40,159 nucleotides of DNA. Origin: Paraburkholderia ginsengiterrae (GTDB lineage: Bacteria > Pseudomonadota > Gammaproteobacteria > Burkholderiales > Burkholderiaceae). Numbering within the stretch: position 1 is the first letter of the stretch; each line of letters opens with the position of its first letter. Shown here piece after piece: positions 64-36,474 of this stretch. Location of the stretch: NCBI RefSeq assembly GCF_001645125.1, contig NZ_LXKA01000347.1:1-40159 (forward strand), written 5' to 3'. The notes under the pieces are model-generated. The model saw only the letters and a program-made list of their open reading frames with translations, was not told the DNA's origin and did not search any database. A program made the position numbers and the translations under genes.

Positions 64-2870
64 ATGTAGACCACGACCAGCGCGGCGAGGATAAGGGGCG
101 GCACGGCGACCATAGACTGGGCATACGCCTGGGCGGCGCCCGCGAACGCGCCGTGGATCGACGCGGGCATGCCGATGTCGCGCCCGGCCTGCTCGAGGAT
201 CTGGCCGGCCTCGCTGAGCGAGCCGCCATTGGGCAGGTTGAACGAGATGGTGCCCGCAACGAGGCCGCTCTGATGGTTGACCTGGGTTGCGGTGTGGCTG
301 TTCGAGTAGGTCAGCAATGCAGGCAGCGGGACCATGGTTTCGGCCGCGGTGCTGTCCGCGCTGCCGCTGGAATTGCCGCCCTTGCTGTTCGAGATGCTGT
401 TGGTCTGCTGGTTCGCCTCCGCGTCGGCGTTCAGCGAGTTCGTATTGGCGCTGCTGCCGGACGCGCTGCTCACGGCCGCCGCCTGCTGCACGGCCTTGAC
501 GGTCGCGCCGGACATCTGCGTCTGCTGGGTGCCGCTTGCGTTGCCGGCGGCCGCGCTCATGAAGATCTGGTTGAGCGCCTGCGGATACTGCCAGTAGGCC
601 GGTGCGACTTCCATCACGACGAAGTACTGGTTCAGCGGGTTGTAGATCGTCGACACGGTGCGCTGGCCGAACGCGTCGTACAGCACGTTGTCGATCTGGT
701 TCGGCTGGAAGCCGTAGCGCGTGGCGGTCGCGCGGCTGATGTTCAGGTACGTCTGCAAGCCGTGCTGCTGCAGATCCGAGTTCACGTCCTCCATTTTTCC
801 GCGGTATTTGCCGAGTTCGGCCACGAGTTTCGGCACCCACGTGAAGAGGGCGTCGGCGTCGTCGCTGGTCAGCGTGTACTGGTATTCGGCCGCGGCCTGG
901 CGTCCGCCGATCTGCAGATCCTGCTGGGCTTGCAGGAAGAGCTGCGCGCCCGAGACGGCATTGAGTTTCGGGCGCAGCCGGTTGACCACCTCGGTGGCCG
1001 ACAGATGGCGTTGCGCGAGCGGTTTGAGTTCGATGAATACGTTGGCTGTGTTGAGCGCGCGGCCGCCGGTGAAACCCGCAACCGATGCCACCGCCGGGTC
1101 CTGCTTCACGATGGCCTGCAATTGGGCGAGTTTCTTTTCCATGGCGGAGAACGAGATGCTCTGATCCGCAATGATCTGCCCGATCAGGATGCCGGTGTCC
1201 TGCTCGGGAAAGAACGTGCCGGACACAAACCTGACCAGGAACACGTTGAGCACGAGCAGACCGATCAACAGAAAGATGACTGCGCGCGAGTGGTCGAGCG
1301 CCACCGCGAGCGAGCGCGAATAGGCCTGCTTGAAGCGCTCGAATTGCGCTTCGCCCCAGCGTGCCCAGCGCGCCTTCGAATGCTTCGCCTGTTCGTGATT
1401 GAGCAGGTAGGCGCACATGACGGGCGTGATGGTCAGCGAGATCAGCAGCGACAGCAGGATCGCAATCGACAGCGTGACCGCGAATTCATGAAACAGCAGG
1501 CCGACAATGCCCGGCATCAGCAGGATCGGCAGAAATACCGCGATCAGCGAGAGGCTCATCGAGATCACCGTGAAGCCGACCTCGGCGCTGCCGCGCAGCG
1601 CGGCTTCTTTCGGCGGGAGACCGGCGTCGAGATGGCGCACGATGTTCTCCAGCACCACCACGGCGTCGTCGACCACGAAGCCGGTGCCGATCGTCAACGC
1701 CATCAGCGAGAGATTGTCGATGCTATAGCCGAGCAGATACATCGGCCCGAACGTGCCGATAATCGACAGCGGCAGCGCGACGGCGGGAATCAGCGTGGCG
1801 CGCGGCGACAGCAGGAACACGAACACCACGCCCACCACCAGCAGTACCGCGATGAACAGCGTGCGCTCGGTGTCGGCCACCGAGGAGCGCACCGACTCCG
1901 AGCGGTCGATCGCGACGTTCACGTGGATCGTGCTCGGCAACGCGGCTTCAATGACCGGCAGGCGCGCCTGGATCTGCTGGACCGTCTGCACGACGTTGCT
2001 GCCCGGCGTCGGATAGACGATCACCAGCACCGCCGACTTGCCGTTATAGAGCCCGGCATTGCGGATATTTTCGTTCGAGTCACGCACCTGGGCGACGTCG
2101 CGCAGCAGCACGGGCGCGCCGTTGCGGTAGGCGATTACGACGTCGCGATACGGCGCGGCTTTGCTGATCTGGTCGTTCGAGGTGACCACGTAGCGCTGCT
2201 CGCCCTGGTCGATGTGGCCTTTCGCGCTGTTCGCGTTGGCGGCGCCGATCGCCGCGCGCACGTCTTCGAGACCGATGCCGTAACTGTTCAGCTTGCCCGG
2301 TTCCAGCTCGACGCGCACCGACGGCAAGGCGCCGCCGCCGAGCGTAATTTGCCCGACGCCGCTGATCTGCGACAACTGCTGCTGGATTACCGAATCGGCG
2401 GAATCGTAGAGCTGGGCTTTCGTCAGCGTGTCGGAAGTCAGCGCGAGCACCATGATCGGCGCGCCGGCCGGGTTGTACTGACGGTAGGTCGGGTTGCTGC
2501 GCAGTGTGGTCGGCAGATCGGCGCGTGCGGCCTGAATGGCCGCTTGTACGTCGCGCGCGGCGCCGTTGATATCGCGGTTCAGGCCGAACACGACAATGAT
2601 CAGCGACGAACCCACGTAACTGATCGAGGTGAGCTGGCTGACGTCGGCAATGGTGCCGAGGCGCCGCTCCAGCGGCTCGGCGACCGTCGCCGCCATGATC
2701 TCCGGGCTCGCGCCCGCCATGTTCGCCTGCAGCGCAATTACGGGAAAGGCGATGTTCGGCAGCGGCGCGACCGGCAGTCGGAAATAGGCCAGCATCCCGG
2801 ACAGCGCGATCGCCAGCGCCAGCAGCACAGTGGCGACCGGGCGTTGGATGAAGAGCGCCGAGATGTTCAC
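64..2870 (-). CDS. mdtC: RND efflux pump inner-membrane subunit, MdtC-like (3' truncated by contig end)
   Basis: This is a proton-driven inner-membrane transporter subunit of the HAE1-type RND superfamily, expected to pair with the MdtB-like product upstream. About 935 codons are visible, against roughly 1030-1070 for the family. The reading frame is open to the window edge, but only down to about position 64 is genuine; TM10 to TM12 are missing. The start is GTG at 2870, overlapping the mdtB stop by four bases (GTGA), which implies translational coupling. The N-terminus begins NISALFIQRPVATVLL, the standard RND first helix. The TM4 proton-relay pair is present in GFVVDDAVVVLENIVR. One oddity is a stretch between about residues 771 and 846 that is rich in Ser, Asn, Gln and Ala; relatives have only a short loop there. 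Assignment to the family is firm. The exact symbol is by operon position. Confidence 0.9.
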
Positions 2871-5800
2871 GGCGCGTTCTCCGGCGGTGCCGCGGCGCCG
2901 CCATTGGCCGCGCCGCGCCGGCTTCTCGCGCGCTGCGCGAGGCGGTCGAAGAACAGGTAGATCACGGGCGTCGTGAAGAGCGTGAGCACCTGGCTAAGCG
3001 TGAGGCCGCCAATGATCGCGAGACCGAGCGGCCGGCGCAGCTCCGAGCCGGTGCCGGTGCCGAGCAGCATGGGCAGGGCGCCGAGCATGGCGGCGAGCGT
3101 GGTCATCAGGATCGGCCGGAAGCGCAGCAGCGATGCTTCGAAAATCGCTTCGCGCGGCGGCTTGCCGTGAACGCGCTCCGCTTCGAGCGCGAAGTCGACC
3201 ATCATGATGGCGTTCTTCTTGACGATGCCGATCAGCAGCACGATGCCGATGATGCCGATCACGTCGAGATCGCTGCCCGCGATCATCAGCGCGAGCAGGG
3301 CGCCGATGCCGGCCGACGGCAGCGTGGACAGAATCGTCACCGGGTGGATGTAGCTTTCGTACAGCACGCCCAGCACGATATACACGGCGACCAGCGCGGC
3401 GATCAGCAGATAGACCTCGCTCGAGAGCGAGTCTTCGAATGCCTGGGCCGCGCCCTGGAACGTCGAGGTGATCGACGGCGGCAGATTCACCGCGCGTTCG
3501 GCGTCGCGGATCTGCGCGACCGCGGCGCTGAGCGATGCGTCCTGCGCGAGGTTGAACGAAATCGTGACCGACGGGAACTGGGCGAGATGGCTGATCATCA
3601 GCGGCGATTGCTTGATGCTGATCTTCGCGATACCGGAGAGCTGCACCTGGCCACTGCTGCTCGTCTGGCTCGGCAAATACAGGTTGCCGAGCGACTGCAC
3701 GGTGGGCATCGTCTCGGGCTTCGCCACCAGAATCACGCGATACTGGTCGGACTGCTGGAAGATGGTCGACACGATGCGCTGGCCGAGCGCGTCGTAGAGC
3801 GCGTTGTCGATGGTGGCCGCGGTGATGCCGTAGCGCGCGGCGAGTTGCCGGTTCACCTCGACGTCGACGCTCAGGCCATTGGTGTTCAGGTCGCTCGTCA
3901 CGTCCGTGATCGCGGGAATCTGCTTCATGCGCGCGATCAACGCCGGCACGTACTGGTTGAAGGCGTCCTGGCTCGGCCCGCGCAGCACGAAGTTGTACTG
4001 GTTGCGCGAGATCGACGTGTCGAGCGTCAGGTCCTGCTCGGGCTGCAGATAGAGGCGGATGCCGGGCACGTTGGCGACTTCCTGCTGGATGCGGCGGCCG
4101 ATTTCCTCGGCGGTGACGGAGCGGTCGTCGCGCGGACGCAGATTGATCAGGAAGCGGCCGTTGTTCAGCGTCGGATTGGTCCCGTCGATGCCGACATACG
4201 AGGTGAGCGACACCACGTCGGGATCCTTGAGGATCGCATCGGCCAGCGCGCTCTGGCGACGCACCATGGCTGAATAGGAAACCGAATTGTCGGCCACACT
4301 AATCCCCTGGATTACGCCGACGTCCTGCACCGGGAACAGGCCCTTCGGAATCACGATGTAGAGGATCGCGGTGAGCGCGACGGTGATGAGCGCGACCACC
4401 AGCGTGAGCGTCTGGTGATCGAGCACCCATCTCAGGCCGCGCTCGTAGGCGTTGAGCGTTTTGTTGAACAGGCCTTCGCTGAAGCGCTCGAAGCGGCTCG
4501 GATGGCGCTGCGCCTGGGCGCGCAAGAGGCGCGCGCACAGCATCGGCACCACCGTCAGCGAGACCACGGCCGAGATCACGATGGTCACCGCGAGCGTGAT
4601 CGCGAATTCGCTGAAGAGCCGGCCGATCACGCCGCCCATGAACAGCAGCGGGATCAGCACGGCGATCAGCGAGACAGTCAGCGACAGAATGGTGAAGCCG
4701 ATCTGGCCGGCGCCTTCCAATGCCGCTTCGAGCGGGGTCTTGCCCTCTTCGAGATAGCGGACGATGTTCTCGATCATCACGATCGAATCGTCGACCACGA
4801 ACCCGGTGGCGATGATCAACGCCATCAGCGAGAGGTTGTCGATCGAATAGTTGAGCTGGTACATCACGGCGAGCGTGCCGATCAGCGACACCGGCACGGA
4901 GATGCTCGGAATGACGGTAGCGGGCACGTTGCGCAGGAACACGAAGATCACCAGCACGACCAGCACGATGGCGAGCACCAGTTCGAACGCGGCGTCCGAG
5001 ACCGACGAGCGGATCACGCCGGTGGTGTTGGCCACGACTGTGACCTGCAGGCCGGCGGGCAGCGTCGATTCGAGCTGCGGCAGCTGTTTCATGATCTGGT
5101 TCACGGTGGCGATCACGTTCGCCCCCGGCTGACGCTGCACGTTCAGCACGATCGCGGGCGTGCGGTTGTACCACGCCCCGCGTTCCACATCCTGAGCGGC
5201 CTGGCTCACGCGCGCGACATCGCGCAGGTAGACCGGTGCGCCGTTCTGGTAGGCGATCACGGTCTCCAGATAGTCTTTCGGGTCGGCGATCTGGTCGTTC
5301 GCGTTGATCGTGTAGTCGAGTTCCGGGCCGTCGAAATTGCCCTTCGGCTGGCTGACGTTGACGTTGGCCAGCAAGGTGCGCAAATCGTCGAGATTCAGTC
5401 CGTAGGCGGCGAGCTTCTGCGGGTCCGCTTCGACGCGCACGGCCGGCACGTTGCCGCCGGCCGTGGTCACGAGACCGACGCCGGGGACCTCGGAGATCTT
5501 GGTGGCGAGACGATTGTTGGCGGTGTCCTGCAACTGCGTCAGCGACATGGACTTCGAGGTGACCGCGAGCGTGAGGATCGGCTGGTCGGCCGGGTTGACC
5601 TTCGCGTAGGTCGGCGGCGCGGGCAGGCCGCTCGGCAGGAAGCTGTTGGCGGCGTTGATGGCCTGCTGGACGTTCTGCTCGGCAATGTCGAGATTCAGCG
5701 AGAGATCGAATTGCAGCGTGATGACCGACGCGCCTTCCGAACTGTACGAGACCATCTGCTGCAGACCGGGGATCTCGCCGAGCTGGACCTCGAGCGGCGC

Positions 5801-5992
5801 GGTGACGGTGGTTGCCATCACGTTCGGGCTCGCGCCGGGGTAGAAGGTCTGGACCTGGATGGTCGGATAGTCGACGTCGGGCAGCGACGAGACCGGCAGA
5901 AAGCGCACCGCGACCAGCCCTACGAGCACGAGCGCGATCATCAGCAGCGACGTCGCCACGGGTCTGAGGATGAACAGCCGGGAGAAATTCAT
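2867..5992 (-). CDS. mdtB: RND efflux pump inner-membrane subunit, MdtB-like
   Basis: Inner-membrane RND permease of 1041 residues, the usual family length. It exports drugs or bile-salt-like compounds by proton antiport, working with MdtA, MdtC and an outer-membrane channel not seen here. The N-terminal helix starts MNFSRLFILRPVATSLL. TM4 carries the Asp pair in GFVVDDSIVMIENIVR, and TM10 carries the Lys in GIVKKNAIMMVDFAL, so the proton relay is intact. The two large periplasmic porter and docking domains follow TM1 and TM7 in the normal order. The gene starts 12 bp after the mdtA stop and overlaps mdtC by four bases, giving one transcript mdtA-mdtB-mdtC. No strong Shine-Dalgarno precedes the ATG, consistent with coupling to mdtA. 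Confidence 0.95.
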   Translation of the reverse strand: MNFSRLFILRPVATSLLMIALVLVGLVAVRFLPVSSLPDVDYPTIQVQTFYPGASPNVMATTVTAPLEVQLGEIPGLQQMVSYSSEGASVITLQFDLSLNLDIAEQNVQQAINAANSFLPSGLPAPPTYAKVNPADQPILTLAVTSKSMSLTQLQDTANNRLATKISEVPGVGLVTTAGGNVPAVRVEADPQKLAAYGLNLDDLRTLLANVNVSQPKGNFDGPELDYTINANDQIADPKDYLETVIAYQNGAPVYLRDVARVSQAAQDVERGAWYNRTPAIVLNVQRQPGANVIATVNQIMKQLPQLESTLPAGLQVTVVANTTGVIRSSVSDAAFELVLAIVLVVLVIFVFLRNVPATVIPSISVPVSLIGTLAVMYQLNYSIDNLSLMALIIATGFVVDDSIVMIENIVRYLEEGKTPLEAALEGAGQIGFTILSLTVSLIAVLIPLLFMGGVIGRLFSEFAITLAVTIVISAVVSLTVVPMLCARLLRAQAQRHPSRFERFSEGLFNKTLNAYERGLRWVLDHQTLTLVVALITVALTAILYIVIPKGLFPVQDVGVIQGISVADNSVSYSAMVRRQSALADAILKDPDVVSLTSYVGIDGTNPTLNNGRFLINLRPRDDRSVTAEEIGRRIQQEVANVPGIRLYLQPEQDLTLDTSISRNQYNFVLRGPSQDAFNQYVPALIARMKQIPAITDVTSDLNTNGLSVDVEVNRQLAARYGITAATIDNALYDALGQRIVSTIFQQSDQYRVILVAKPETMPTVQSLGNLYLPSQTSSSGQVQLSGIAKISIKQSPLMISHLAQFPSVTISFNLAQDASLSAAVAQIRDAERAVNLPPSITSTFQGAAQAFEDSLSSEVYLLIAALVAVYIVLGVLYESYIHPVTILSTLPSAGIGALLALMIAGSDLDVIGIIGIVLLIGIVKKNAIMMVDFALEAERVHGKPPREAIFEASLLRFRPILMTTLAAMLGALPMLLGTGTGSELRRPLGLAIIGGLTLSQVLTLFTTPVIYLFFDRLAQRARSRRGAANGGAAAPPENAP

Positions 5993-6004
5993 CGCGGCGC
6001 GGCG

Positions 6005-7294
6005 CTACGAAGCCGTTGATGTCTGGCCTGGTGCGGCCGTGCCGGGCGCGGACGCCGGACGCGTCCGCTGGACGGCGGAGGCAGGGGCTGCCGTTGCCGC
6101 CGGCGTTGTTGCCGATGTCGCAGCCGATGCGCCCGTCGCATTCGACGCCGGCCGCGCGGAGCTCGCCTTGATCTTCATGCCGTCGCTCAAGCGGTCCATG
6201 CCGTCGGTGACGACCACGTTGCCCGCGGCGAGCCCCGCCGTGATCACCGTGTGCTGGCCGTCGCCCGGTCCCAGCGTGACCTTGCGGACCGACACCGTGC
6301 TGTCGGCGTTGACGAGGTACACATAGTCGCCGGGGGCGCCGTTCTGTATCGCGGGGGTGGGCACCAGCACCGCGTTCTGCAGCGTGTCGACCAGCAGCTT
6401 CACGTTGACGAACTCGTTCGGGAAGAGGGCTTCGTCGTCATTGGGGAAGCTCGCGCGCAGCGTGACCGTGCCGGTCGCCGTCGCCATCTGGTTGCTGATG
6501 GCGTACAACGTGCCAGTCGCCAGTTGGCGGGTATTGTCGCTGCTGAACACCGTGACGGGGAGCTGCGCCCCTGACTTGCTGCGCTGCAACACCTTGTCGA
6601 GCGCGCTTTGCGGCACCGTGAATTCGACCGTAGTCGGTTTCATCGAGGTGATGACGGCAATGCCCGGCTGGCTCGAGGCGGTCACGTAGTTGCCCGGGTC
6701 GACGAGGCGCAGCCCGACTCGGCCGGCCACCGGCGCGGTGATGTGGCAGTAGATCAGGTCGAGTTCGAACTGCGCAATGTTGGCCTCGTCGGCCTTGACG
6801 GCCGCTTCCTCCTGCTGCACGAGAAACTGCTGATCGGCATAGGTTTGCTCGGCAATCGACTTGCGCTCGTTCAATTGCGTAAAGCGCACGAGGTCGGCGC
6901 GGGCCTGGGCGAGCGCCGCCTTGTCCTTGGCCAGTTGGGCCTCGGCCTGGCGCTTGCTGATTTCGTACTGGCGCGGATCGATCTGTGCGAGGAATTGCCC
7001 CTTCTGGACCTCTTCGCCTTCGCGATAGCCGACCGCGGTCAGGTAGCCGCTCAGCTGCGGCAGCACGGTCACGGTGGCGACGGGGGTCACCGTGCCCAGC
7101 TCGCTCAGCGTTTCGGGCATGGGCCCGATGATCGCGGTGGCGACCGTCACGACCTGGGGGGCCGCAGCGGGTTTTTGCGTCTTCGAGCGAACCAGATGGA
7201 TGATCACCAGCGCGATCAGCGCCAGCACCACGACGGCGAGGATCAGGCGGCCGCGCCGTGGCCGCTCTGCCCGGGTTGACGGCGCTTCGCTCAT
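6005..7294 (-). CDS. mdtA: RND efflux periplasmic adaptor, MdtA-like
   Basis: Membrane-fusion (HlyD/AcrA-type) adaptor of 429 residues that links the RND pump to an outer-membrane channel. A short basic cytoplasmic tail is followed by one membrane anchor at about residues 16-36 (ILAVVVLALIALVII). Then come the lipoyl and hairpin region with a long Ala/Gln/Lys-rich coiled coil (residues about 100-180), the beta-barrel and the membrane-proximal domain. The Pro/Ala/Thr-rich tail is disordered. I chose the ATG at 7294 because a GGGAGC ribosome site lies about 6 bp upstream and the protein then starts as family members do. The open frame continues up to a TTG at 7435, which would add an implausible 47 residues. 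First gene of the operon. Confidence 0.93.
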   Translation of the reverse strand: MSEAPSTRAERPRRGRLILAVVVLALIALVIIHLVRSKTQKPAAAPQVVTVATAIIGPMPETLSELGTVTPVATVTVLPQLSGYLTAVGYREGEEVQKGQFLAQIDPRQYEISKRQAEAQLAKDKAALAQARADLVRFTQLNERKSIAEQTYADQQFLVQQEEAAVKADEANIAQFELDLIYCHITAPVAGRVGLRLVDPGNYVTASSQPGIAVITSMKPTTVEFTVPQSALDKVLQRSKSGAQLPVTVFSSDNTRQLATGTLYAISNQMATATGTVTLRASFPNDDEALFPNEFVNVKLLVDTLQNAVLVPTPAIQNGAPGDYVYLVNADSTVSVRKVTLGPGDGQHTVITAGLAAGNVVVTDGMDRLSDGMKIKASSARPASNATGASAATSATTPAATAAPASAVQRTRPASAPGTAAPGQTSTAS

Positions 7295-7606
7295 GACACG
7301 CTCCCGCCGGAGCGGAGGCATCCAGCGAACGCCGTCAATGGACGGCCCGGCCAATTGCTGTCGAAGAGCGTCATACAAACTCCCTGGCTGGGGTATCGCC
7401 GATATCGCCGATAGCGGCGACAGGAATCCAGACAATCACAAACAGAGTCTATCCGACTGTGGACCTTATTTCGTAACCGCATCTTGAGCCGCAGTTTCGA
7501 TTTGTTACTGTCGCTTGCGGTGTGAGGCGCTGCCGTATTTTTCCCCGGCGCGATCCCCTATACTTCCACACTCGATTTCGACCTGCCGCGATGCGTTGCG
7601 AATGCG
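7295..7606. other. Divergent intergenic region, mdtA / REC-kinase
   Basis: This 312-bp region separates the efflux operon from the divergent REC-kinase gene and must hold both promoters. Near the mdtA side there is a 9-bp tandem repeat (TATCGCCGA twice, then TAGCGGCGA, 7394-7420). Its last part forms a perfect 6-bp hairpin, TCGCCG (7405-7410) and CGGCGA (7415-7420), about 110 bp upstream of the mdtA start, so probably in its leader. A TATACT at 7559-7564, about 42 bp before the REC-kinase start, could be a -10 box, but no good -35 pairs with it. No gene is supported here. Confidence 0.5.
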
Positions 7607-8767
7607 ATGAGTGACACTATGCAGCCCCCGTTTGCCATTCTCTTCGTCGACGACGACGAGATGTCACGCAACCACTTCGCCCGGGCGATCGGTGCGGACT
7701 ACAGCGTGCATGTCGCCTCCGGCGCCGACGAAGCCATGGCGGTGCTGGGCCGGCATGGCTCGGAGATCGCCGTGATGGTGACCGATTTCCGCATGCCGGG
7801 GCGCGACGGCGACGATCTGCTGCGCCAGGTGGCGCAGGAATATCCGCAAATCATGCGGATACTCGTAACCGCGTACGCCGACAAGGACATGCTGCTGCAG
7901 ACGGTCAATACCGGCGACATCTTCCGCATCCTCGAAAAGCCGCTTCGGACCGACATGGTACGCGAGGTCCTGCAACTGGCGATCGCGCGCTACACGGAGC
8001 GGGAGACCCGGCAACAGCGGCTGCTGGCCATGGACGAGACGCTTGCCTTTCTCGCCCACGAATTGAACACGCCACTCGCGACCATCTCGCTCTTTGCGCG
8101 TTCCGTCGAGAATGACGTCGGCGAGCAATATGATCCGGAACGGCAAAGGGCGATCGGTCAGGCGGCGAGCTCCATGCTGAACAATGCGCAGTACTGCCTG
8201 ACGCTGATCTCGTCGTTCTGGGCGACGGTGCACAAAAGCGGTGGCCAGCAATCCGCGTCGGGCGCCGGCGCCCGCGAGGTGAGGGCGACCCGTCTGATCG
8301 CCACGTTGCTCGATACCTATCCGTTTGTCGCGTCGCAGCGCGACTGGATCAAGGTCGACGTGGCGGGCGATTTCGTCGTGCATGCCATGCCCAACTGCGT
8401 GGCGCTGGTCCTGTCGTCGCTGTTGTCCAATGCTTTGCGCGCGCTCGACGGTACGGATGCGCCGTCTTTGCAGCTCGAAGTCGTGGCAAGCCCGGAGCCG
8501 GAGATCCGGATTTGCGACAACGGACCGGGGATTGCGCCCGAGATCAAGGCACGTCTGCTGCAAGACCCCATCACCACCTACGGCGGCGCGGGCGGCCACG
8601 GCATGGGCATGATCTTTTGCAACCGGATCATGCAATCGTTCGGCGGGTGTCTGCGGATCGATTCGACTTACGGCGCGGGCACCACGGTCACCATGAGTTT
8701 TCCGGGTTTCAATGGCCGCATGCATGCCAGTGACAACGAGGTGCCGTCCGGCAGTCAGACCGCGTAG
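7607..8767 (+). CDS. Response regulator receiver fused to a histidine kinase (PhcR/PhcQ-like)
   Basis: Cytoplasmic signalling protein of 386 residues with reversed hybrid order, receiver first and kinase second. The receiver spans about residues 9-125, with acidic pocket D15-D17, phosphoacceptor D60 (VTDFRMPGRDG) and K111 (EKP). The kinase half has an H-box at H151 (FLAHELNTPLATI), N275 in the N-box (LLSNALRAL), DNGPGIA at 304-310 and a Gly-rich GGHGMGM lid. There is no membrane segment, so input must come from a partner, presumably the hybrid kinase encoded convergently 38 bp away. A receiver followed by a kinase is the layout reported for PhcR of the Ralstonia phc quorum-sensing system; the link to that system is my inference. 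There is no DNA-binding domain, so the output gene is not identified. Confidence 0.85.
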   Translation: MSDTMQPPFAILFVDDDEMSRNHFARAIGADYSVHVASGADEAMAVLGRHGSEIAVMVTDFRMPGRDGDDLLRQVAQEYPQIMRILVTAYADKDMLLQTVNTGDIFRILEKPLRTDMVREVLQLAIARYTERETRQQRLLAMDETLAFLAHELNTPLATISLFARSVENDVGEQYDPERQRAIGQAASSMLNNAQYCLTLISSFWATVHKSGGQQSASGAGAREVRATRLIATLLDTYPFVASQRDWIKVDVAGDFVVHAMPNCVALVLSSLLSNALRALDGTDAPSLQLEVVASPEPEIRICDNGPGIAPEIKARLLQDPITTYGGAGGHGMGMIFCNRIMQSFGGCLRIDSTYGAGTTVTMSFPGFNGRMHASDNEVPSGSQTA

Positions 8768-8805
8768 CAGTCAGGCGCGGGGCGCTCGCTGTCATCTCAG
8801 AGGCA

Positions 8806-11352
8806 TCAATCGTTCAGAAAGTCGCGATGATCGCGACGTGTCTTCGCCGAGTTGAAATACCCTTGCAGCGCGTCGGCGGAACGTCCGCCCAGCAGGCCGA
8901 TGCGCGCCAGCCAGTTGTCCTCCGCGGGCCATGCGCCCTCGACCACGCGCGGATAGATCTGCCGCGCGAACTGATGCAGCGCCTTCGCCCCGATGTTGCC
9001 GCTCACGCCAAGCAGCAGATGCAGGGCGCGGTGCGTCGCTTCGAGGTCGTCGGCGTCCGTACTGATCTCGAGGCGGTCCACCAGCTGGCGAATCTGCTCG
9101 ATGCCTTTGATGAACGAATCGTCCAGCAGATCGAGCGCGACCAGTTCTTCGAGGTGTTTCTCGTCGAGCAGATCGCTTTCCCGGATCGCGGGCAGCGCGC
9201 TGGCCGGCGCGGCGGCCGTGGGGGCGGGCGCTGCTTTGGCGGCAACGTTCGCCACCCGTTGCGGCGTCAACTGTCTGGCGAGGCAGATGTACAGCGAGCC
9301 GCCGTGCACGGGTTTGATCATGACCTCGTTCATGCCCGCCGCGAGGCAGGCCCGCACGGCGTCGTCGTCCGACTGGCTGGTGAGGGCGATGATCGGCACC
9401 GTGGCGTAGGCGTCGGTGCGGGCACGAATCGACGCGGTCGTTTCCACGCCGCCCATGCCCGGCATGTTCATGTCCATCACGATGGCGTCGATGACACCGT
9501 GCTCCTGCAAGCGAGCCAGCACAGCCTGGCCGTGTTCGGCCTCGACCACGCTTGCACCACATCGCTCCAGATAGGCTTTGGCCACCAGCCGGCTGTAGGT
9601 GTCGTCGTCCGCGACCAGAATCGACTTGCCGGCGAACGCGTCGGTTTTCTGGCTCAGATGGTGCCGGTTGCCGTTTTCAAAGAGCGCCTGGACCGAGGTG
9701 ATCAGTTCCAGCACGCTGGACGATTTGCTGATGATTTCGTCCATGCCGGCGCGCCGGGCGAGCACGCGCGCCACGGTGCCGGGCTCCGCCGTGTAGGCGG
9801 ATATCAGCACGTCCCAGTGTGGCGATTCATGGTCGGCGCGAATCCGCTCCGTGGCTGCATAGCCATCCAGAACCGGCATGTCGATGTCCATCAGGACAAG
9901 GTCGTGGTGCGCGGACTCCCGCAGCACCGCCAGCGCCACTTCGCCATTTTCCGCTTCGCTGACGTGCGCGCCCACCTTCAGCAACGCGCGGCCGGTTCGC
10001 ATGCGCTGCCCGGCGTCGTCGTCGACGAGCAGAATGCGCTTGCCTCTGAAAACCGGCGTGGCGCGTTCAAAGATCTTGTGTTCGTAGTCCTCGATTTCGC
10101 TCTTCGAGACCACTGGAAACTGCAGCGTGAACGCTGTGTACTTTCCGACTTCCGAGCGGCAGCCAATGGTGCCGCCGAAGGCGTGCATAGCGCGCTGGCA
10201 GTAAGCGAGCCCGAGCCCGGTGCCAGCCGAATTGCCCGACGTGCGAAACGGCTCGAACAGGTGTGACAGCATCTCGGGCGCAATGCCGGGTCCGGTGTCG
10301 CGCACCATGACCAAGTTCCGGTCGACCGTGAGCGTGAGCGTGGCCGAAGCATGCGTAGCAATGTGATGAAGCGCGTTCTTGATCAGATTGAACAGGGTGA
10401 ACAGGTAGACCGTTTCGTCGACCTTGAAGGTGAAATCCTCCAGCACCACGAGCTTGACCTTGTCGCGCTCCTTTTCGTCGGCGAAACCGTATTCTTCCAG
10501 CGCTTTGCGCGTGGTGGACGCCGCGCTCAGATAAGCGAGGCCGTCCGAGCGAATGGGTTTGGCGCTGACTTCGTCGAGTGTCATGGCGATAATGCGCAGA
10601 CCGCGCTCAATCGACAATTGCCCGTGCGCCAGATGACGATACAGGCTTGCCGCGCCGTCGTGCGACAGCGGCGACGCGCGGCTGGATTCCACCGTGGCCG
10701 GCAGTGCCTCTTCCACCCGATCCAGAACATGCTTCAACTGGCCGAGGGGGTTGCGCATTTCATGGGCGATCGAACCCGCGAGCGCCTGCAAGGCCCGGTT
10801 CTTTTCGACGAAGATGCGGCCTTTGCTGATCGCATGGCTAAACGCCATGCTGCACAAGACGACCACCGGCAGCAGCGCGAGGTTCGACTGATCTTCCGCG
10901 CTCACGACGATCGGCACAGGGGAGCTGAACACCGCGGCCAGCGCGCCGGCCAATACGCCGATGCCGATGCAACCCATCAGCAAAAACGGACTGTCGATGC
11001 ACAGCGCGAGAATGAAGATCATCATGACCTCGGTCATCATCCACATGGTGGAGAATGAATTCCGGATCGCGAGGAACGTGCAGACGAACGGCAGCACGTA
11101 GATCAGGCAGCAATGCCAGTAGATCAGCAGGAGGTGGTTGTAGCGCTTCGGCCAGCGTGCCTGGAAGACCAGCGGAATGCAGAGAGCCGCCGCGCTCAGC
11201 CGGAGGTAGAGGTTGTCGTACGGTTGGGGCAGGACATAGGTCCAGACTACGTAGTAGATGGGGTGGCACAGGAGGCCCAGGGCGCCGCCCCATCGAATTG
11301 CAAACCGGCTTCGTTCCAGCACGTCCCGCATGCTTTCGCGCGGTATGACCAT
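8806..11352 (-). CDS. Hybrid sensor histidine kinase of the CqsS/LqsS/PhcS quorum-sensing family
   Basis: 848-residue membrane sensor. Residues about 20-175 hold a multi-helix membrane domain with the motif HPIYYVVWTYVLPQPYDNLYLRL near residue 30, which resembles the sensor domain of CqsS/LqsS/PhcS kinases. Then follow the H-box H197 (SIAHEMRNPLGQL), N-box N322/N326, DTGPGIA at 352-358 and GTGLGL at 377-382. Two receivers come next: D489 with K543, and D627 with T658 and K680. A C-terminal HPt-like domain ends the protein, with H778 in HLLLGVSGNIGA; the usual Lys after the His is Leu. GGAGG lies 8 bp before the ATG. It is 17 bp downstream of the acyl-reductase-like gene and surely co-transcribed with it. 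It probably relays phosphate to a separate regulator. The ligand is unknown. Confidence 0.88.
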   Translation of the reverse strand: MVIPRESMRDVLERSRFAIRWGGALGLLCHPIYYVVWTYVLPQPYDNLYLRLSAAALCIPLVFQARWPKRYNHLLLIYWHCCLIYVLPFVCTFLAIRNSFSTMWMMTEVMMIFILALCIDSPFLLMGCIGIGVLAGALAAVFSSPVPIVVSAEDQSNLALLPVVVLCSMAFSHAISKGRIFVEKNRALQALAGSIAHEMRNPLGQLKHVLDRVEEALPATVESSRASPLSHDGAASLYRHLAHGQLSIERGLRIIAMTLDEVSAKPIRSDGLAYLSAASTTRKALEEYGFADEKERDKVKLVVLEDFTFKVDETVYLFTLFNLIKNALHHIATHASATLTLTVDRNLVMVRDTGPGIAPEMLSHLFEPFRTSGNSAGTGLGLAYCQRAMHAFGGTIGCRSEVGKYTAFTLQFPVVSKSEIEDYEHKIFERATPVFRGKRILLVDDDAGQRMRTGRALLKVGAHVSEAENGEVALAVLRESAHHDLVLMDIDMPVLDGYAATERIRADHESPHWDVLISAYTAEPGTVARVLARRAGMDEIISKSSSVLELITSVQALFENGNRHHLSQKTDAFAGKSILVADDDTYSRLVAKAYLERCGASVVEAEHGQAVLARLQEHGVIDAIVMDMNMPGMGGVETTASIRARTDAYATVPIIALTSQSDDDAVRACLAAGMNEVMIKPVHGGSLYICLARQLTPQRVANVAAKAAPAPTAAAPASALPAIRESDLLDEKHLEELVALDLLDDSFIKGIEQIRQLVDRLEISTDADDLEATHRALHLLLGVSGNIGAKALHQFARQIYPRVVEGAWPAEDNWLARIGLLGGRSADALQGYFNSAKTRRDHRDFLND

Positions 11353-11369
11353 CAGGCCTCCAATGACAT

Positions 11370-12596
11370 TTACGACCCCATCAATTCATGCTTGTTGCGG
11401 TGTTGCGTTTCCAGGCTGATCGGCGAACCGTTCTTGCCATGGAATGGGCCGACCGTAAATCCGTATTTCTTCAGGAGACCGTGCGTGTAGGACACCGACC
11501 ACACGGGCGGGCTGCCGATGATGAAGTCGGAAGCAATGCCTTCCTGCCAGGCGGAGTAGCCTTCGGCGAAACACGTGTAGCAATCGCGCGTGGTCGGCAG
11601 CCGGAATGGGAACGTGGTATTGAGTCCGGCAGGGCCACGCGCGAAGCACTCAATATATAGCGTATGTTCGCGAGACGCGAGTTCGGCCTCGACGCTCGCT
11701 GCCCGCGGATGGGAGTCGTCTATCCAGAATTGGGCGCGCTTGAGATCGTCGACGGTGAGGTACGGCACGCTGGTGCTGCTGGCAAGTATCGCCCCATCGA
11801 ACTGTGGCAACGGTGTGTCCGGACTGAACGTATGCACCGACACTCGGGTTTTTCCGAGCAGGTCCGATGCCATCAACTCCTTTGCCTGGTCATTGAGCAG
11901 GTTCAGCTTGTCCGGCAAGTCGATCAGGACCAACTCCTTCGGGGCATCCTTGTAGAGCGCGTACTTGGCCACGGTCGTGCCCAGCCGCCCGGCCGCACCG
12001 AACAGCGCGAGCTTGGTCCTGCCGAACTCGAGGTCGAGTTCATTGCAGCAGTGCATGGCCCAGTCTTTCAGCATTGCGGCGGTGGCGGCGTGACCCGTGG
12101 TGATATGAGGCGGCTTCGTGTCGCGCGGCAGGGCGCCGTAGTTGCAGGCGTAAGGAGTGGAAGCGCCCATCGCGACCATGTTCAGGCCTGCCTGCCTCGC
12201 CAGTTCCAGCGCCGGGAAAAATTGCGTCTCGCGGAATCGCTTGATGCCGCGCGGGCTTCCCAGCCACATTTCGAGGGGCACCGGGCAGGCGATATTGGCG
12301 CCGATAATCTGTGAACCCGAATAAATCGGCGACGCAATAAACGGTTTGGTGTTCCACAGCTCCTCTTCGAATGACGCGTCTCTGCGCTTCACATTGTGAA
12401 ATGAAAATGAAAGAGTGTCCCAGTCGGTAGCGTGAAACAGAAAGCCGATGCCGCCTTGGTTGGCGGGCAGATTATCCCGGATCTCTTCCGGGCTGATTAT
12501 GTGTTTGAGTGCCAAAGGGGCACTGTTTTGATGCAGGCTGGCACCGGCGTGGCAGTCGGAATAGGTCAATATTTCCGTATGTAAAGATGCTCTCAT
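11370..12596 (-). CDS. Acyl-ACP reductase-like dehydrogenase, candidate signal synthase
   Basis: 408-residue cytoplasmic protein. Its layout matches long-chain acyl-ACP reductase (AAR) of cyanobacteria, the enzyme that makes fatty aldehydes from acyl-ACP. Shared points seen by eye are the ITTGHAATA stretch (165-173; AAR has FTTGNTHTA), a Rossmann nucleotide loop GAAGRLG at 200-206, and the segment TCFAEGYSAW with C342. That Cys lines up with the AAR catalytic Cys in ACFAEA. A KKYGF segment also lies near the C-terminus as in AAR. The N-terminal 90 residues look specific to this branch. The ATG follows AAGGA by about 10 bp. It is the first gene of a two-gene operon with the CqsS-type kinase, where relatives have a signal synthase (CqsA/LqsA or PhcB). 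I infer that it makes the signal. Function is not proven, and a general oxidoreductase remains possible. Confidence 0.72.
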   Translation of the reverse strand: MRASLHTEILTYSDCHAGASLHQNSAPLALKHIISPEEIRDNLPANQGGIGFLFHATDWDTLSFSFHNVKRRDASFEEELWNTKPFIASPIYSGSQIIGANIACPVPLEMWLGSPRGIKRFRETQFFPALELARQAGLNMVAMGASTPYACNYGALPRDTKPPHITTGHAATAAMLKDWAMHCCNELDLEFGRTKLALFGAAGRLGTTVAKYALYKDAPKELVLIDLPDKLNLLNDQAKELMASDLLGKTRVSVHTFSPDTPLPQFDGAILASSTSVPYLTVDDLKRAQFWIDDSHPRAASVEAELASREHTLYIECFARGPAGLNTTFPFRLPTTRDCYTCFAEGYSAWQEGIASDFIIGSPPVWSVSYTHGLLKKYGFTVGPFHGKNGSPISLETQHRNKHELMGS

Positions 12597-12957
12597 TTGG
12601 CTATTTTCCTTAGGATGAACTTACGCTGGACTAATCAGCGGCGTGGTGCCGCTCCGGATTCACGGGCGACTCTTTAACTCTAGAGAAAACTGATGCAATA
12701 TGCCCGTCTGTTGGTTCGCATTGCCTAGAAAATCACTTACCGCTTTTCCTGGCTTGGGACATTGGGATCGACCCGCAGGCGCGGTATGCCGGTTTGACCA
12801 AGGCGGCTCGATCAAGGCAGCTCAGCCAAGGCGGCCGCCGGCCGACCTTATCCACAGAAAATGTTCATATCTTTGTGGACAAGTCCTGGGCAGGCGCTGT
12901 AACTGATTGAGCGCAGGGCGATTTCCGTCGCGGACCAGCGAACGCGCTTATGCCCGC
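12597..12957. other. Intergenic region upstream of the acyl-reductase/kinase operon
   Basis: 361 bp between the acyl-reductase start and the 3' end of the DedA-fusion gene; the operon promoter must lie here. Notable contents are a palindromic CTCTAGAG at 12677-12684, a Gly-rich 12810-12850 stretch with repeated AAGGCGGC or AAGGCAGC units, and two DnaA-box-like 9-mers listed separately. An open frame at 12700-12906 on the plus strand has unusual composition and no ribosome site, so I do not call it a gene. I see no convincing -35/-10 pair. Confidence 0.5.
12848..12882. promoter_or_regulatory. Inverted pair of DnaA-box-like 9-mers
   Basis: TTATCCACA at 12848-12856 is a perfect consensus DnaA box. 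TGTGGACAA at 12874-12882 is its inverse with one change (TTGTCCACA read on the minus strand). The two are separated by 17 bp of AT-rich sequence. This lies about 250 bp upstream of the acyl-reductase operon start. It could be a DnaA-titrating or DnaA-regulated site, or simply the operator of another regulator. No replication genes are nearby. Confidence 0.45.
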
Positions 12958-14964
12958 TTATTCCATCTGCGAGACGAGCAGCGACACCGGCACGCCGTGG
13001 CAACTCACGGTGGCAACGAGCGCGGCCCCGAGGTCCGCCCCGGAGGCCGCGTGCACATCCGGCAGACTCCAGTCTCTATCTACTCGCACGATGTTGATCG
13101 GCCACGAGCGCCGCGCCAGCCGTTCGTGCGCGAAAGCCCCGACCCAAAGCGGCGTCGCGGATGTCCCGTCGCCCACCGCGTAGCCGCTGGGCCAGAAGCG
13201 CAGCACGTCCCGTTCGTCGCGGCTATCGCCCGGCCGCATGAAAACGGCCGTTGAAGGCACGCCGTCGTTGAGCTTCGGCAGGACCGGCAAAGAGGTGGCC
13301 GCGACATTGGGCGAGGCGAGGGAAAGCAGGCTGTGCGGCGACAGGTCCGTGCCCTCGACCCAGCCTTGGGCGCGCAGTTGCCCGCGGATCGAATCGAGGT
13401 TCGATACCCACTGCAGCGTGAGCGGCTCCTTGAGATCGCCGCCCATATCCGAGCGGTAGCAGGGCAGGCGCTTCCACACTGAGAGCTTCCATTGCGATTG
13501 CGTGACCAGCACGGGCGGCGGCCGCTGCATGCTGTCCGGTGGCGGGGCGCCCAGACTGAAGCCGAGTTGCGCGCCCACGCTGACCAGCATGACCACCAGA
13601 ACCACGACCGGCATGAAGGGGCGTTCCGGCGGCGCCTGAGGGTGCCGCCACATGGCCGTGATTGCAATGATCGCCACCCAGGCGTACGCGAGCGCGGCGC
13701 CGCCGATGGCGTCGGACACCCAGTACCTGCCGAAGTACACGCCCGCCAGCGCGACCACGATCACCACCATGGTGCTGGCGGCTGCCACCAGCATGCCCTC
13801 CAGCATGCCGACCCGCCTCGCGAGGAGAAAGGCGAGGAAGCCGTAGACGGTGACGGTCGCCGCGACGTGATTGCTCGGAAAGACGTAGGAGCCGCCCATC
13901 AATGCGTTGGGCGGCGCGCGGTGCATGGCGAACTGCAGGGCGAAGATCAGCAGTTGGGAAAATACGACCGCCGCGAGCCAGTAGCCGATGGTGCGCCAGC
14001 GACGTTCCAGCAGCATCCACCCCGTGACCGTCACGATCAGCGCCCCAAGCGTGATGGTGTTGCCCAGCGTCGACAGTCCCGCGAGAACGGTGTCCCCCCA
14101 GGGCGTGCGTACCGATTGCAGAAAGTGATAAACGGAGAGGTCGACCCGGGTGAGCGGATCGCCGCTGATGACGTCGTCAAGCACCCCGAAAAAGAGCGCC
14201 CCGGACACCAGAACGATGAGTGTGGCCAGCAGGATGCTGCTGGCATCCGGCGTTTCGGGGTCGAGCATTTTCCGCGCGAAACGGCCAAACGGTCCCGGAT
14301 GCCGGCAGGCCCAGCTGCCCAGATTGCGGCCCGCCGCGCTCGACCATGCGTTGGCGTGCGAGAGCAGGAAGCCCGCCACACGAAAGCTCAGCCAGACAAT
14401 GCCCACCAGCAGGGCCAGGATGACGACCAGCCGGAACGACACCGCGCCGGCCAGCAGCACCGAGGCGCCGAATACCACGCCCGGCAGGATATGGGCGGGC
14501 GCCCAGATCAGCGCCGACAGCACGTTCATGGCGTAGAAGCGCAACGGCGTCATGCCCAGCATGCCCGCCACGACGGGCACGATCGCCCGCAAGGGAGCGA
14601 TGAAGCGCGCCAGCACGACGCTCTTGGCGCCATGTTTCCTGAAGTAGCGATGGCCCGCCTCGAGCACCTCCGGGTGTTTGGCGAACGGCCAGAGTTGGGC
14701 GATCTGATCCTTGTAGCGGCTGCCGAGCCAGAAGCTCATGCCGTCGCCGGCAATGGCGCCGGCGATCGCCCACACGAGTACCCAGACGAGGCTGAGCGAG
14801 CCGGTGCCGGTCAGGGCGCCGGCGAGGAACATGGCGGTACTGCCGGGGATGAAGGTGCCGATAACGGCAATCGCCTCGAGAAAGGCGGCGAGGAAGATGA
14901 CCGTGAGCGTCCACGCCGGGTGGCCGGCTAGCAGATGCAAAAGGTGGATGTAGGCGTGCTCCAT
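12958..14964 (-). CDS. DedA-PAP2-LssY fusion membrane protein with degenerate phosphatase site
   Basis: 668-residue polytopic membrane protein with three parts. Residues about 1-205 are a DedA (SNARE-associated) domain with the typical RFIAPLRAIVPVVAGMLGM stretch at 120-138; such proteins move lipids such as undecaprenyl phosphate across the inner membrane. Residues about 245-435 are a PAP2 phosphatase-like domain. Residues about 485-668 are an LssY-type C-terminal soluble domain. The PAP2 signature residues are poorly kept. The motif Lys is Q344, the Arg of RP is P351, PSGH reads PSNH (363-366), the third-motif Arg is G408 and its His is Y414; D418 remains. Loss of phosphatase activity is therefore likely. 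A stem-loop covers the region just before the ATG. The gene stands alone. Confidence 0.88.
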   Translation of the reverse strand: MEHAYIHLLHLLAGHPAWTLTVIFLAAFLEAIAVIGTFIPGSTAMFLAGALTGTGSLSLVWVLVWAIAGAIAGDGMSFWLGSRYKDQIAQLWPFAKHPEVLEAGHRYFRKHGAKSVVLARFIAPLRAIVPVVAGMLGMTPLRFYAMNVLSALIWAPAHILPGVVFGASVLLAGAVSFRLVVILALLVGIVWLSFRVAGFLLSHANAWSSAAGRNLGSWACRHPGPFGRFARKMLDPETPDASSILLATLIVLVSGALFFGVLDDVISGDPLTRVDLSVYHFLQSVRTPWGDTVLAGLSTLGNTITLGALIVTVTGWMLLERRWRTIGYWLAAVVFSQLLIFALQFAMHRAPPNALMGGSYVFPSNHVAATVTVYGFLAFLLARRVGMLEGMLVAAASTMVVIVVALAGVYFGRYWVSDAIGGAALAYAWVAIIAITAMWRHPQAPPERPFMPVVVLVVMLVSVGAQLGFSLGAPPPDSMQRPPPVLVTQSQWKLSVWKRLPCYRSDMGGDLKEPLTLQWVSNLDSIRGQLRAQGWVEGTDLSPHSLLSLASPNVAATSLPVLPKLNDGVPSTAVFMRPGDSRDERDVLRFWPSGYAVGDGTSATPLWVGAFAHERLARRSWPINIVRVDRDWSLPDVHAASGADLGAALVATVSCHGVPVSLLVSQME

Positions 14965-14971
14965 CGTGCGC

Positions 14972-15000
14972 GATCAGCCGTTCTGGCGTAACGGTTGATC
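14972..15000 (-). promoter_or_regulatory. Stem-loop next to the DedA-fusion start codon
   Basis: GATCAGCCGTT (14972-14982) and AACGGTTGATC (14990-15000) form an 11-bp stem with one G-T pair and a 7-nt loop. Read on the minus strand, the stem ends 7 nt before the DedA-fusion ATG at 14964, over the place of the ribosome site. No recognisable Shine-Dalgarno is left outside it. There is no T-tract, so it is a poor terminator for the upstream glycine-zipper gene. Control of DedA-fusion translation is a guess. Confidence 0.4.
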
Positions 15001-15047
15001 ATAACGCGAGGGAGCCGCCTTATGCTTTCTGGACGCTCGTCAGAGGT

Positions 15048-15779
15048 TCACGAAGCGCTGAGCGAATCGCCGGACACGTGGACGCGTTCGCCGACCTGCA
15101 CGGCCGGTTGCGTCTGATAGCTGAAGTTGCGGTAGCTGCCGTCCTGCATGCGGACCTGGACTTCATAGGTGGTCTGCTTGCGCACCGCGTGCTCGATGCC
15201 GTTGCCGGCGAGGCCACCGCCGACCGCGCCCGCGATCGTCGTGAGGATCTTGCCGCGGCCGCCGCCGATCTGATTGCCGACCAGCCCGCCCGCGAAGGCT
15301 CCGCCGAGCGCGCCGAGCCCCGTGGTCGGCTCGGGCGACTGCACCGTGTTGATCGCGACCACTTCGCCTGCATACGGATCGGCGGCGACCGGCCGCGGCG
15401 CCGGGTTGTTATAGTTTGCCTGGTAGCCCTGATTGTTCGCGTAGCCCGGCGCAGGCGTTGGGCTGGGGCGGTGCGTGTGGTGAACCGGCGGCCGGGCAGG
15501 GGCGGCTTGCTGCACCGGCTGCTGCGCGGCTTGTTGCACCGGCAGCTGCGCCGTTTGCTGAACCGGGACTGGCTGGGGTGCCGCGAGCGGTGCGCTGGCG
15601 ACTTGCGCGGCCGCCGTGACCGGCAGAGCGGGTTCCGTGACGGCATGCGAAGTCGGCAGCAGGCCGGTCATCGCCGCGATGCCGGTGGCGCTGGCCAGAA
15701 TGACGGCTACCGCCGCGCCGGCGACCAGCGGGTGAATGCGGCTGCGTTGCGGATTGCTGGAAGTGAGGTTCGTGTTCAT
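15048..15779 (-). CDS. Glycine-zipper 2TM domain envelope protein
   Basis: 243-residue protein with one membrane segment at about residues 17-38 (AGAAVAVILASATGIAAMTGLL). A long Pro/Ala/Gln/Val-rich spacer with repeated PVQQ-type units at about 55-110 follows. A glycine-zipper pair begins near residue 150 (GALGGAFAGGLVGNQIGGG, then GAVGGGLAGNGIEHAV). The end is a small beta-rich tail, as in SlyB/17-kDa-antigen relatives. It probably sits in the cell envelope and stabilises it, but the partner is unknown. The start at ATG 15779 has GGAG 8 bp upstream and gives a normal N-terminus; the longer frame to 15878 lacks both. There is no lipobox cysteine, so it is anchored by its N-terminal helix rather than by lipid. 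Confidence 0.85.
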   Translation of the reverse strand: MNTNLTSSNPQRSRIHPLVAGAAVAVILASATGIAAMTGLLPTSHAVTEPALPVTAAAQVASAPLAAPQPVPVQQTAQLPVQQAAQQPVQQAAPARPPVHHTHRPSPTPAPGYANNQGYQANYNNPAPRPVAADPYAGEVVAINTVQSPEPTTGLGALGGAFAGGLVGNQIGGGRGKILTTIAGAVGGGLAGNGIEHAVRKQTTYEVQVRMQDGSYRNFSYQTQPAVQVGERVHVSGDSLSAS

Positions 15780-15913
15780 GTTGGACTCCGCGAGTAGATG
15801 CCAGCAATAACGCCATCGCGAAGCGCTCGGTGCACACGAAGCGCGTGTTGCTTTGTAAGGGTTTGTGTAACTTTGCATGGGCTGGTTACACCTTTGTCGT
15901 TACGCCCTCTGCG

Positions 15914-16555
15914 TCACTCGTCCCGGACCAGTTGCAGAACGATGCGTTTCGCCGACGCGAGATGGTCCACCGTCATTGATCGCGCGAGGCGTGCGTTGCC
16001 TGCCGTGCATGCTTCGAGAATGCGTTGATGTTCGTCCTGGAAGGCCGGTGTATCGGCGAGCAGGGTGCTTTGCAATCGTTCATAGCGCTCGACCTGAGCG
16101 CGGAGTTCGCGGATCGCTTTCAACTGCCGCCCGTTTGCACAAGGGCGGTATAGCAGTTCATGAAACTCGCGATTCAGCTCACCCTGTTTTTGGACGGTAT
16201 CCGCGTCTCCCAGAAGTCGATGAACGAGTTCGGCGCGCGATAACGTCTCGCTGTCCATGCGTTTGACCGCGCGGAAGATGGCGTCTCCTTCGAGCAACAT
16301 GCGCAGGCCGTAAATCTCGTCCAGGTCGGACGCCGTCAAGGTTCGCACGACGGCGCCGCGATTGCGCATCAGCTCGACCAGCCCTTCGCCCTCGAGCTTC
16401 TGGATGGCCTCTCTCATCGGCACCCGGCTCACCCCGAACCGATCGGCGAGTTCGCGCTCGACCAGCCGCGCGCCGTCTGCCAGCTCTCCGGCCGCGATCA
16501 GTTCGCGAAGCGAGACGGCGATGGCGTCGGCCGTCGAATCCAGTTTGTGGTCCAT
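15914..16555 (-). CDS. GntR-family regulator, FCD subfamily
   Basis: 213-residue transcription factor. The winged helix-turn-helix is at about residues 10-75, with the recognition region DRFGVSRVPMREAIQKLEGEGLVEL split over the usual GntR signature. The FCD ligand-binding domain follows, with the NREFHELLY helix that normally supplies a metal-binding His. The start at ATG 16555 has AGGAACC about 10 bp upstream; the longer frame to 16609 would add an atypical tail that covers the operator. It is divergent from the OsmC-type gene, and the palindrome TGGTATACCA lies between them. It probably represses one or both genes until a small carboxylic acid is bound. The ligand is not known. Confidence 0.9.
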   Translation of the reverse strand: MDHKLDSTADAIAVSLRELIAAGELADGARLVERELADRFGVSRVPMREAIQKLEGEGLVELMRNRGAVVRTLTASDLDEIYGLRMLLEGDAIFRAVKRMDSETLSRAELVHRLLGDADTVQKQGELNREFHELLYRPCANGRQLKAIRELRAQVERYERLQSTLLADTPAFQDEHQRILEACTAGNARLARSMTVDHLASAKRIVLQLVRDE

Positions 16556-31073: not shown

Positions 31074-31563
31074 GTACCTGAGCGCCTGAGCGCAAGGCGG
31101 CCAACGCACCGGCGCGCCGGCACCCCGTCGCTTGCCCTCCCACTGACATCTCCCGGCGATATTGTCGAGCAGACCCGGACCCACGAGGTTCGGGCCGATT
31201 TCCGGTCATCCGCCGGCTTCCGTCCTCTTCTGAACCTTCGCCATCCAGACTCGCAACCAGTAGACTGGCTTGGATATTATTGGCGAATTGTGTCGTTTTT
31301 TGGTTTTATGCAGAATCGTCATGGCGTTGTCACGGAAACCGGTGATCCTTGCCGTGCCCGATCAGGCATGGCTGGCAGCGCAAATGTCGTAGATGGGCTG
31401 TAAGTCAGGCAGGAGAAGAAGCAGTAAAGTTGTCGGCAATCTGCAATCCGCACGGCAACATGCTGCGGGCAACACGCAAGAGGCGCGGCGCTACCGCCGT
31501 CCAATCACAACAGGTATCGGGATATCCCGACCGTCTGGTTTTTTGCCTTTCGGAGAGAGCGAC
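31074..31563. other. Upstream region of the phosphonate operon
   Basis: 490 bp between the DeoR gene and phnS. A TATTAT at 31275-31280 in an AT-rich patch is a possible -10, with only a weak -35 (TCGCAA, 31251-31256). A perfect palindrome near 31517 is listed separately. The phnS frame is open back to 31393, but the signal peptide and ribosome site place its start at 31564. No other gene is supported. Confidence 0.5.
31517..31530. promoter_or_regulatory. 14-bp palindrome upstream of phnS
   Basis: TCGGGATATCCCGA is a perfect palindrome that ends 33 bp before the phnS ATG, close to where a repressor would block transcription. It is a candidate operator for the nearby DeoR- or GntR-type regulator. 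It could also form a hairpin in the leader. Confidence 0.45.
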
Positions 31564-32655: not shown

Positions 32656-32674
32656 ATCGCCGTTCGCTGCTTAG

Positions 32675-36469: not shown

Positions 36470-36474
36470 GATAG

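Follow-up and report, generated by a model that had tools for sequence, protein, structure and literature searches.

A reductase and sensor kinase gene pair of Paraburkholderia as a candidate CqsS/LqsS-type signalling module

Studied receptors of the CqsS/LqsS family read secreted signals, as passages of the reviews PMC3376566 and PMC3285556 describe, and where the synthases that serve this family have been studied, the product is an alpha-hydroxyketone. We examined a locus in the 40,159-nucleotide contig NZ_LXKA01000347.1 (the window, by which we mean this whole stretch) from the 8.5 Mb genome of Paraburkholderia ginsengiterrae, where an earlier note made from the sequence had proposed a new quorum-sensing system composed of an acyl-ACP (acyl carrier protein) reductase-like synthase and a CqsS/LqsS/PhcS-type kinase. 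Like CqsA/CqsS and LqsA/LqsS/LqsR, the locus combines a six-helix sensor of one family with an adjacent gene in the place of the synthase and with an LqsR-like or receiver partner that is convergent or nearby. Unlike them, it carries no LqsA-like gene, and a reductase with the fold of acyl-ACP reductase (AAR) replaces the pyridoxal phosphate-dependent enzyme; its kinase bears a pair of receivers plus an Hpt domain, and in place of an LqsR-like partner the locus has a PhcR-like one. With the Phc system (phcBSRQ) it shares a PhcR-like receiver-kinase protein, whereas its sensor is not PhcS-like, its enzyme is not a methyltransferase and no phcQ-like gene adjoins. The receptor and the partner come from known families; the novelty lies in the enzyme that fills the synthase slot. 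In the open-access literature (PMC, outside which lie most subscription papers and preprints), we found no system in which a reductase-type synthase serves receptors of this family, and to that extent the claim that no such system had been described holds. The swapped enzyme beside a quorum-type receptor suggests a cell-to-cell signal of an undescribed chemical type.

A reductase in the synthase slot

Three associated genes occupy positions 7607-12596 of the window. The reductase, a proposed signal synthase of 408 amino acids (11370-12596, minus strand), is followed on the same strand by a hybrid sensor kinase of 848 amino acids (8806-11352), with a gap of 17 bp (11353-11369) between them, as had been claimed. 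The third gene, absent from the earlier note's account, encodes the PhcR-like protein of 386 amino acids (7607-8767, plus strand); it is convergent with the kinase gene, and 38 bp separate their ends.

We identified the reductase beside the kinase in 43 of 43 named loci, all of them from Paraburkholderia or 'Burkholderia sp.' records. In a genus sample of 145 genomes there were 59 reductase matches, of which 56 were near full length, intact and beside the kinase. For 55 of these 56 a kinase row was available, and in all 55 the two matches lay on the same strand, 19-87 bp apart from match to match; the remaining genome, G093, was outside the 143-genome kinase sample, and reading of its locus L189 confirmed the pair. 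Pairing was therefore complete in 43/43 named loci and 56/56 genus genomes with a near-full-length reductase, two counts that overlap and are not independent, and the conservation as neighbours on which the earlier note had made its proposal depend was borne out. The flanking genes vary: an upstream DedA-like gene is present in only 17 of the 43 loci, at a changing distance. Chance adjacency of two genes with unrelated functions, in favour of which nothing was found, is ruled out for practical purposes by this constancy amid varying surroundings.

We then compared the place of the reductase with the corresponding place in other loci of the receptor family. The shorter, LqsS-type kinases had an LqsA-like gene in all nine loci read within the family (L134-L142), and the LqsA of L136 passed the curated cut-off (630 versus 428 bits). 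Of 12 further related-kinase loci, eight carried an LqsA/CqsA-like gene, while L201 (on a short contig), L205, and L208 and L209 (both from one small genome) did not, giving 17 of 21 related-kinase loci combined. A sister class of kinases was accompanied by a FabH-like KAS III gene (Pfam, above cut-off) in 12 of 15 loci read, the exceptions being L147, L178 and L179. The reductase thus occupies the usual synthase slot of this kinase family. Moreover, reviews attribute an LqsA-LqsS cluster to Burkholderia xenovorans (passages of PMC3376566 and PMC3285556). In P. xenovorans LB400 (G143), the LqsA-LqsR-LqsS locus L136 on contig C3 is separate from the reductase-kinase locus L092, and the reviewed cluster is most likely L136, not L092.

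The KAS III-linked module (L143-L146, L148, L180-L182 and L190-L193) resembles the reductase module in its sister kinase, whose domain order matches except for Hpt, in the enzyme gene lying directly upstream, and in a PhcR-like partner in some genomes; it differs in having a FabH-like condensing enzyme. No description of it was found in the open-access literature (PMC). The window's own genome carries this module too (L148; G000, contig C333), where a KAS III gene (273-1307, plus strand) precedes a sister hybrid kinase gene (1342-3915, plus strand) with no PhcR-like neighbour. This KAS III retains, by eye, the apparent FabH active-site Cys, His and Asn, and the two genes form a candidate second signal module. 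In a separate observation, the reductase and the kinase of L194 (3235-7083, minus strand; the same place as L070) form a single open reading frame of 1282 amino acids, which may be a natural fusion or a slip of sequencing or assembly.

The enzyme and its receptor

The resemblance to AAR that the earlier note had seen was weak for the single sequence and became firm with profiles. The reductase alone matched the NCBIfam AAR model TIGR04058 at E=3.4e-4 and 20 bits (19.4 bits in the genome search), far under the curated cut-off of 449.7 and outside that equivalog family, and a Pfam scan returned no family above cut-off. A profile of orthologues only, searched against PDB, matched the TAD of the carmabin pathway (9e4x, 6.3e-10) and AAR (6jzu, 1.5e-3) over residues 118-328 only. 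After four distant relatives were added, the values were 1.4e-67 for TAD, 1.3e-18 for PigE (4ppm) and 1.9e-17 for AAR (6jzu), the very strong TAD score being largely due to that addition; the identity of 9e4x/9e4s as this TAD was taken from the structure titles. Profile-profile comparison with the distant set gave a probability of 99.1 over residues 129-387 and set C342 five columns off the AAR Cys.

In the alignments, C342 (codon 11571-11573) aligned with C294 of AAR, the catalytic residue according to passages of PMC7089970. All 33 orthologues in the alignment (the window and 32 of the 43 named loci) have it, as do the four distant relatives. It stands within CFAEG, where AAR has CFAEA, and in both proteins a Gly follows 19 residues after the Cys, counted by hand. 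The dinucleotide-binding loop GAAGRLG (residues 200-206; 11979-11999), most of whose residues are invariant among aligned orthologues, is the counterpart of GATGDIG in AAR (passages of PMC7089970); both loop and Cys were present as the earlier note had read them from the translation. Fold and catalytic Cys are shared with cyanobacterial AAR, PigE, TamH and the carmabin TAD, and both the profile matches and the aligned Cys place the protein, from its sequence, among the AAR-fold thioester reductases in the wide sense and outside the AAR equivalog family. In contrast to AAR, to which it is about 20% identical, it has Ser at the place of R314, and, unlike AAR and its relatives, it stands alone beside a kinase, with neither ADO nor a natural-product cluster around it. 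An Asp (D226) after the second strand, together with this Ser, suggests NADH over NADPH as the probable cofactor; the related TamH is NADH-specific (passages of PMC9594044). The ratio dN/dS against seven loci was about 0.07-0.11, and this low value indicates purifying selection.

Sequence profiles also favoured AAR and TAD over the shikimate dehydrogenases, the comparison that the earlier note had called for, and put the reductase with AAR and the thioester reductases rather than with catabolic dehydrogenases, the grouping against which that note had warned. The structural comparison, made with a poor AlphaFold model built with close orthologues only (pLDDT 55.5; residues 316-373 below 50), did not separate the two. 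With this model, TAD and AAR were in the first 17 rows of the Foldseek search and shikimate dehydrogenases came next, while a second look by Z had shikimate dehydrogenases leading or tying (12.8 versus 12.0 for TAD and 11.8 for AAR). Kinship with malate/lactate dehydrogenases was considered and rejected, as Pfam Ldh_1_N (E=0.016) was under cut-off and the PDB malate dehydrogenases matched the nucleotide-binding stretch only.

Outside the genus, the reductase had seven distant relatives (25-31% identity) in the family sample and five in the phylum sample; the plasmid collection gave one distant match, in Streptomyces. We read five loci of distant AAR-fold relatives at 20-30% identity (L150, L151, L157; L152, L153). 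By eye, the settings across the five were genes like those for nonribosomal peptide or polyketide synthases, the end of a nonribosomal peptide synthetase-like protein, or transporter-like genes, the first of these being the neighbours in L150, L151 and L157.

Hydropathy predicted six membrane helices at the N-terminus of the kinase, and domain searches and alignments placed after them H197, the ATPase domain, a receiver pair (D489 and D627) and the Hpt domain (H778). H197 was conserved in 44 of 44 alignment rows and D489 in 43 of 44. The sensor domain (residues 1-190; 10783-11352) contains W104xxT107 as well as PQP and LPF cores. When 143 genus genomes were searched with the sensor, 97 gave matches, which we sorted into three classes: orthologues of the window kinase (76-93% identity) in 59 of the 143 genomes, or about four in ten; the sister class of long kinases (about 26-36% identity, mostly 860-940-amino-acid open frames) in 36 genomes; and shorter kinases (28-36% identity, mostly 445-575-amino-acid open frames). 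In a 47-row tree, rooted at the midpoint and accompanied by a program warning of long branches, the two long classes were sisters (97/97) and the LqsS-type kinases joined them, whereas PhcS stood on a distant branch. With the six-helix sensor and the family motifs, this placed the kinase with CqsS/LqsS and ruled out membership of PhcS, so that the PhcS part of the kinase type proposed earlier fell away; the link to Phc runs instead through the PhcR-like protein.

The three-class sensor profile matched 21 of 398 phylum genomes, including kinases of 680-735 amino acids, and in the one locus of that size that we read (L211) a CqsA-like gene adjoins. In Vibrio cholerae CqsS, W104 and S107 read the signal head group (passages of PMC3376566). 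Where the window kinase class has W104xxT107 (44/44 rows), the L211 protein, which is CqsS-like, reads WxxS, and the sister class, in the sequence compared, WxxA; this variation would fit a different signal head group and is only suggestive. As a side observation, the kinases at L082 (11244-13430, about 728 amino acids) and at L090 of an uncultured symbiont (11186-12862, about 558 amino acids) are shortened, with the second-receiver and Hpt region missing in part or completely.

The PhcR-like partner

A receiver-plus-kinase build has been reported for PhcR (passages of PMC8578825), and the PhcR-like protein of the window has the same build, with D60 and H151; no DNA-binding domain was found in its 386 residues. 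For comparison, we read phc-like operons, which occur in part of Paraburkholderia, including genomes with the reductase module. In 11 loci (L163-L173), genes for a methyltransferase-like protein, a PhcS-like kinase and a PhcR-like protein lie in a row, with a PhcQ-like receiver behind them in 10 (domains checked for L165); six more (L183-L188) have the first three genes, and one of them has phcQ too. The PhcR-like proteins encoded there share 57-62% identity with that of the window, and in a 26-row tree the PhcR-like proteins formed one family, which makes the window protein PhcR-type.

At E<=1e-60, 73 of the 143 genomes had this family: G007 and G083 had two members each and the other 71 had one. 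It was present in every one of the 59 genomes that have the window-type kinase versus 14 of 84 without it (Fisher 4e-27, a statistic uncorrected for ancestry), and in 31 of 36 with the sister kinase; five sister-kinase genomes had no match at that threshold, one of which has a fragment (L193). Among the 59 genomes, the PhcR-like gene lay within 7 kb of the window-type kinase in 43, beside the sister kinase in six and elsewhere in 10, and all ten of the latter, when read, were in a phc-like operon. Where both kinases were present (22 genomes), the gene was beside the window-type kinase in 15, the sister kinase in six and in a phc-like operon in one, and in none was it beside both. This is the pattern expected of a shared hub, to which the kinases would pass phosphate. 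A common PhcR-type partner suggests a way for one protein to merge several acyl signals. B. xenovorans LB400 has been named as a carrier of the 3-OH-PAME (3-hydroxypalmitic acid methyl ester) system (passages of PMC3639386); the one PhcR-like protein found in G143, whose coordinates match those of LB400, adjoins the reductase-kinase pair, so that this listing may rest on these kin.

Two further features were noted near this gene family. In four genomes (L174-L177), the PhcR-like gene is apart from any kinase or synthase read and near genes that by eye are ABC transporter-like. In the window, a gene for an RND efflux adaptor (MdtA-like by eye; within 2867-7435, minus strand) adjoins the PhcR-like gene, as it does in 3 of the 43 named loci, and relatives of 72-75% identity lie near the phc-like operon in four loci (L173, at 14605-15861; L183, L185 and L186); the adaptor is possibly an exporter, a target or a coincidence.

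Upstream of the reductase, an alignment of 44 upstream stretches revealed a conserved block of approximate limits (12626-12720, minus strand) containing TTTCTCTAGAGTTAA at 12674-12688. It is probably a promoter or regulator site. Its core, CTCTAGAG, was not found upstream of the 12 KAS III genes examined, and an Rfam scan of 6000-16000 gave no match up to E=0.1.

Weighing the explanations

We consider it reasonably probable that the locus encodes a CqsS/LqsS-type cell-cell signalling module in which an acyl-thioester reductase has replaced the synthase and from which signals pass to a shared hub of the PhcR type. In the proposed reaction, acyl-ACP or acyl-CoA would give up its acyl group to C342 of the reductase, which would reduce it, probably with NADH; neighbourhood and fold point to an aldehyde as the product, and to a fatty aldehyde or a compound derived from one as the signal. 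The aldehyde or its derivative would leave the cell and, presumably in a density-dependent manner, bind the six-helix sensor, upon which the kinase would shift between kinase and phosphatase states. Phosphate would run inside the kinase from H197 through D489/D627 to H778 and then to D60 of the PhcR-like protein, the putative hub common to KAS III-linked and Phc-type kinases, from which an output would follow.

Several observations weigh against this reading. The loci read have no exporter or aldehyde-processing enzyme as a constant neighbour of the pair, the structure model of the reductase is poor, and the co-occurrence statistics lack correction for ancestry. The upstream block led to no regulon: a genome search with TTTCTCTAGAGTTRA gave one exact copy and two with two mismatches, versus five control matches. 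The phc operon of P. phytofirmans PsJN is reported, in passages of PMC3639386, to be without a homologue of phcA, the usual Phc endpoint, and on that account the usual last step may differ. Finally, in four genomes (G012, G013, G028 and G104) the kinase is retained, but the reductase survives only as a decayed remnant where it would be expected. In the 47-row tree, these four kinases group in a single clade, so that one loss suffices, and in all four the PhcR-like protein adjoins the KAS III-type kinase. A diverged kinase orthologue from another genus of the family (L133, 276-2816, minus strand) has no synthase neighbour and lies beside a transposase-like gene. The kinase can thus persist without the enzyme.

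This persistence bears on the alternatives in different ways. It counts against internal lipid-state sensing, in which the reductase would drain acyl-ACP or adjust lipids and the kinase would read the membrane or fatty-acid status of its own cell with no intercellular message. AAR-type enzymes do use the central acyl-ACP pool (passages of PMC7089970), and the lack of a fixed exporter or processing gene adjoining the pair would suit such a role; however, the studied members of the sensor family read secreted signals (PMC3376566, PMC3285556) and other loci of the family mostly have a signal-synthase-type gene in the same slot, and we regard this account as unlikely. The same four genomes speak for a reductase that quenches or tunes an acyl signal from elsewhere (KAS III, Phc modules or neighbours) that the kinase reads, as do the 22 of 59 window-type-kinase genomes that also have a KAS III-linked kinase. 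Such quenching seems to us quite improbable, as 37 of the 59 are without that kinase and the enzyme sits in the slot filled by synthases among the kinase's kin. We give still less credence to a role in detoxification or host sensing, with the kinase sensing an aldehyde or fatty compound from plants or soil and the reductase taking part in its processing: to judge by record names, many of the carriers live in soil or with plants, but AAR-fold enzymes produce aldehydes rather than remove them (passages of PMC7089970 and PMC9594044), and the reductase gene precedes that of the kinase within a single transcription unit and is not a separate target gene.

Beyond the single module, we tentatively propose a wider picture, which we hold to be possible though somewhat more likely wrong than right. 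CqsS/LqsS-type receptors may have repeatedly adopted unrelated acyl-processing synthases, and in Paraburkholderia the private pairs with AAR-fold and KAS III enzymes would share a single PhcR-type hub, used elsewhere by the methyl-ester Phc system, and together make up a quorum network of several channels in which two of the signal classes are as yet undescribed.

Elsewhere in the window, a gene run at 31393-39816 (plus strand) resembles a cluster for phosphonate uptake and breakdown.

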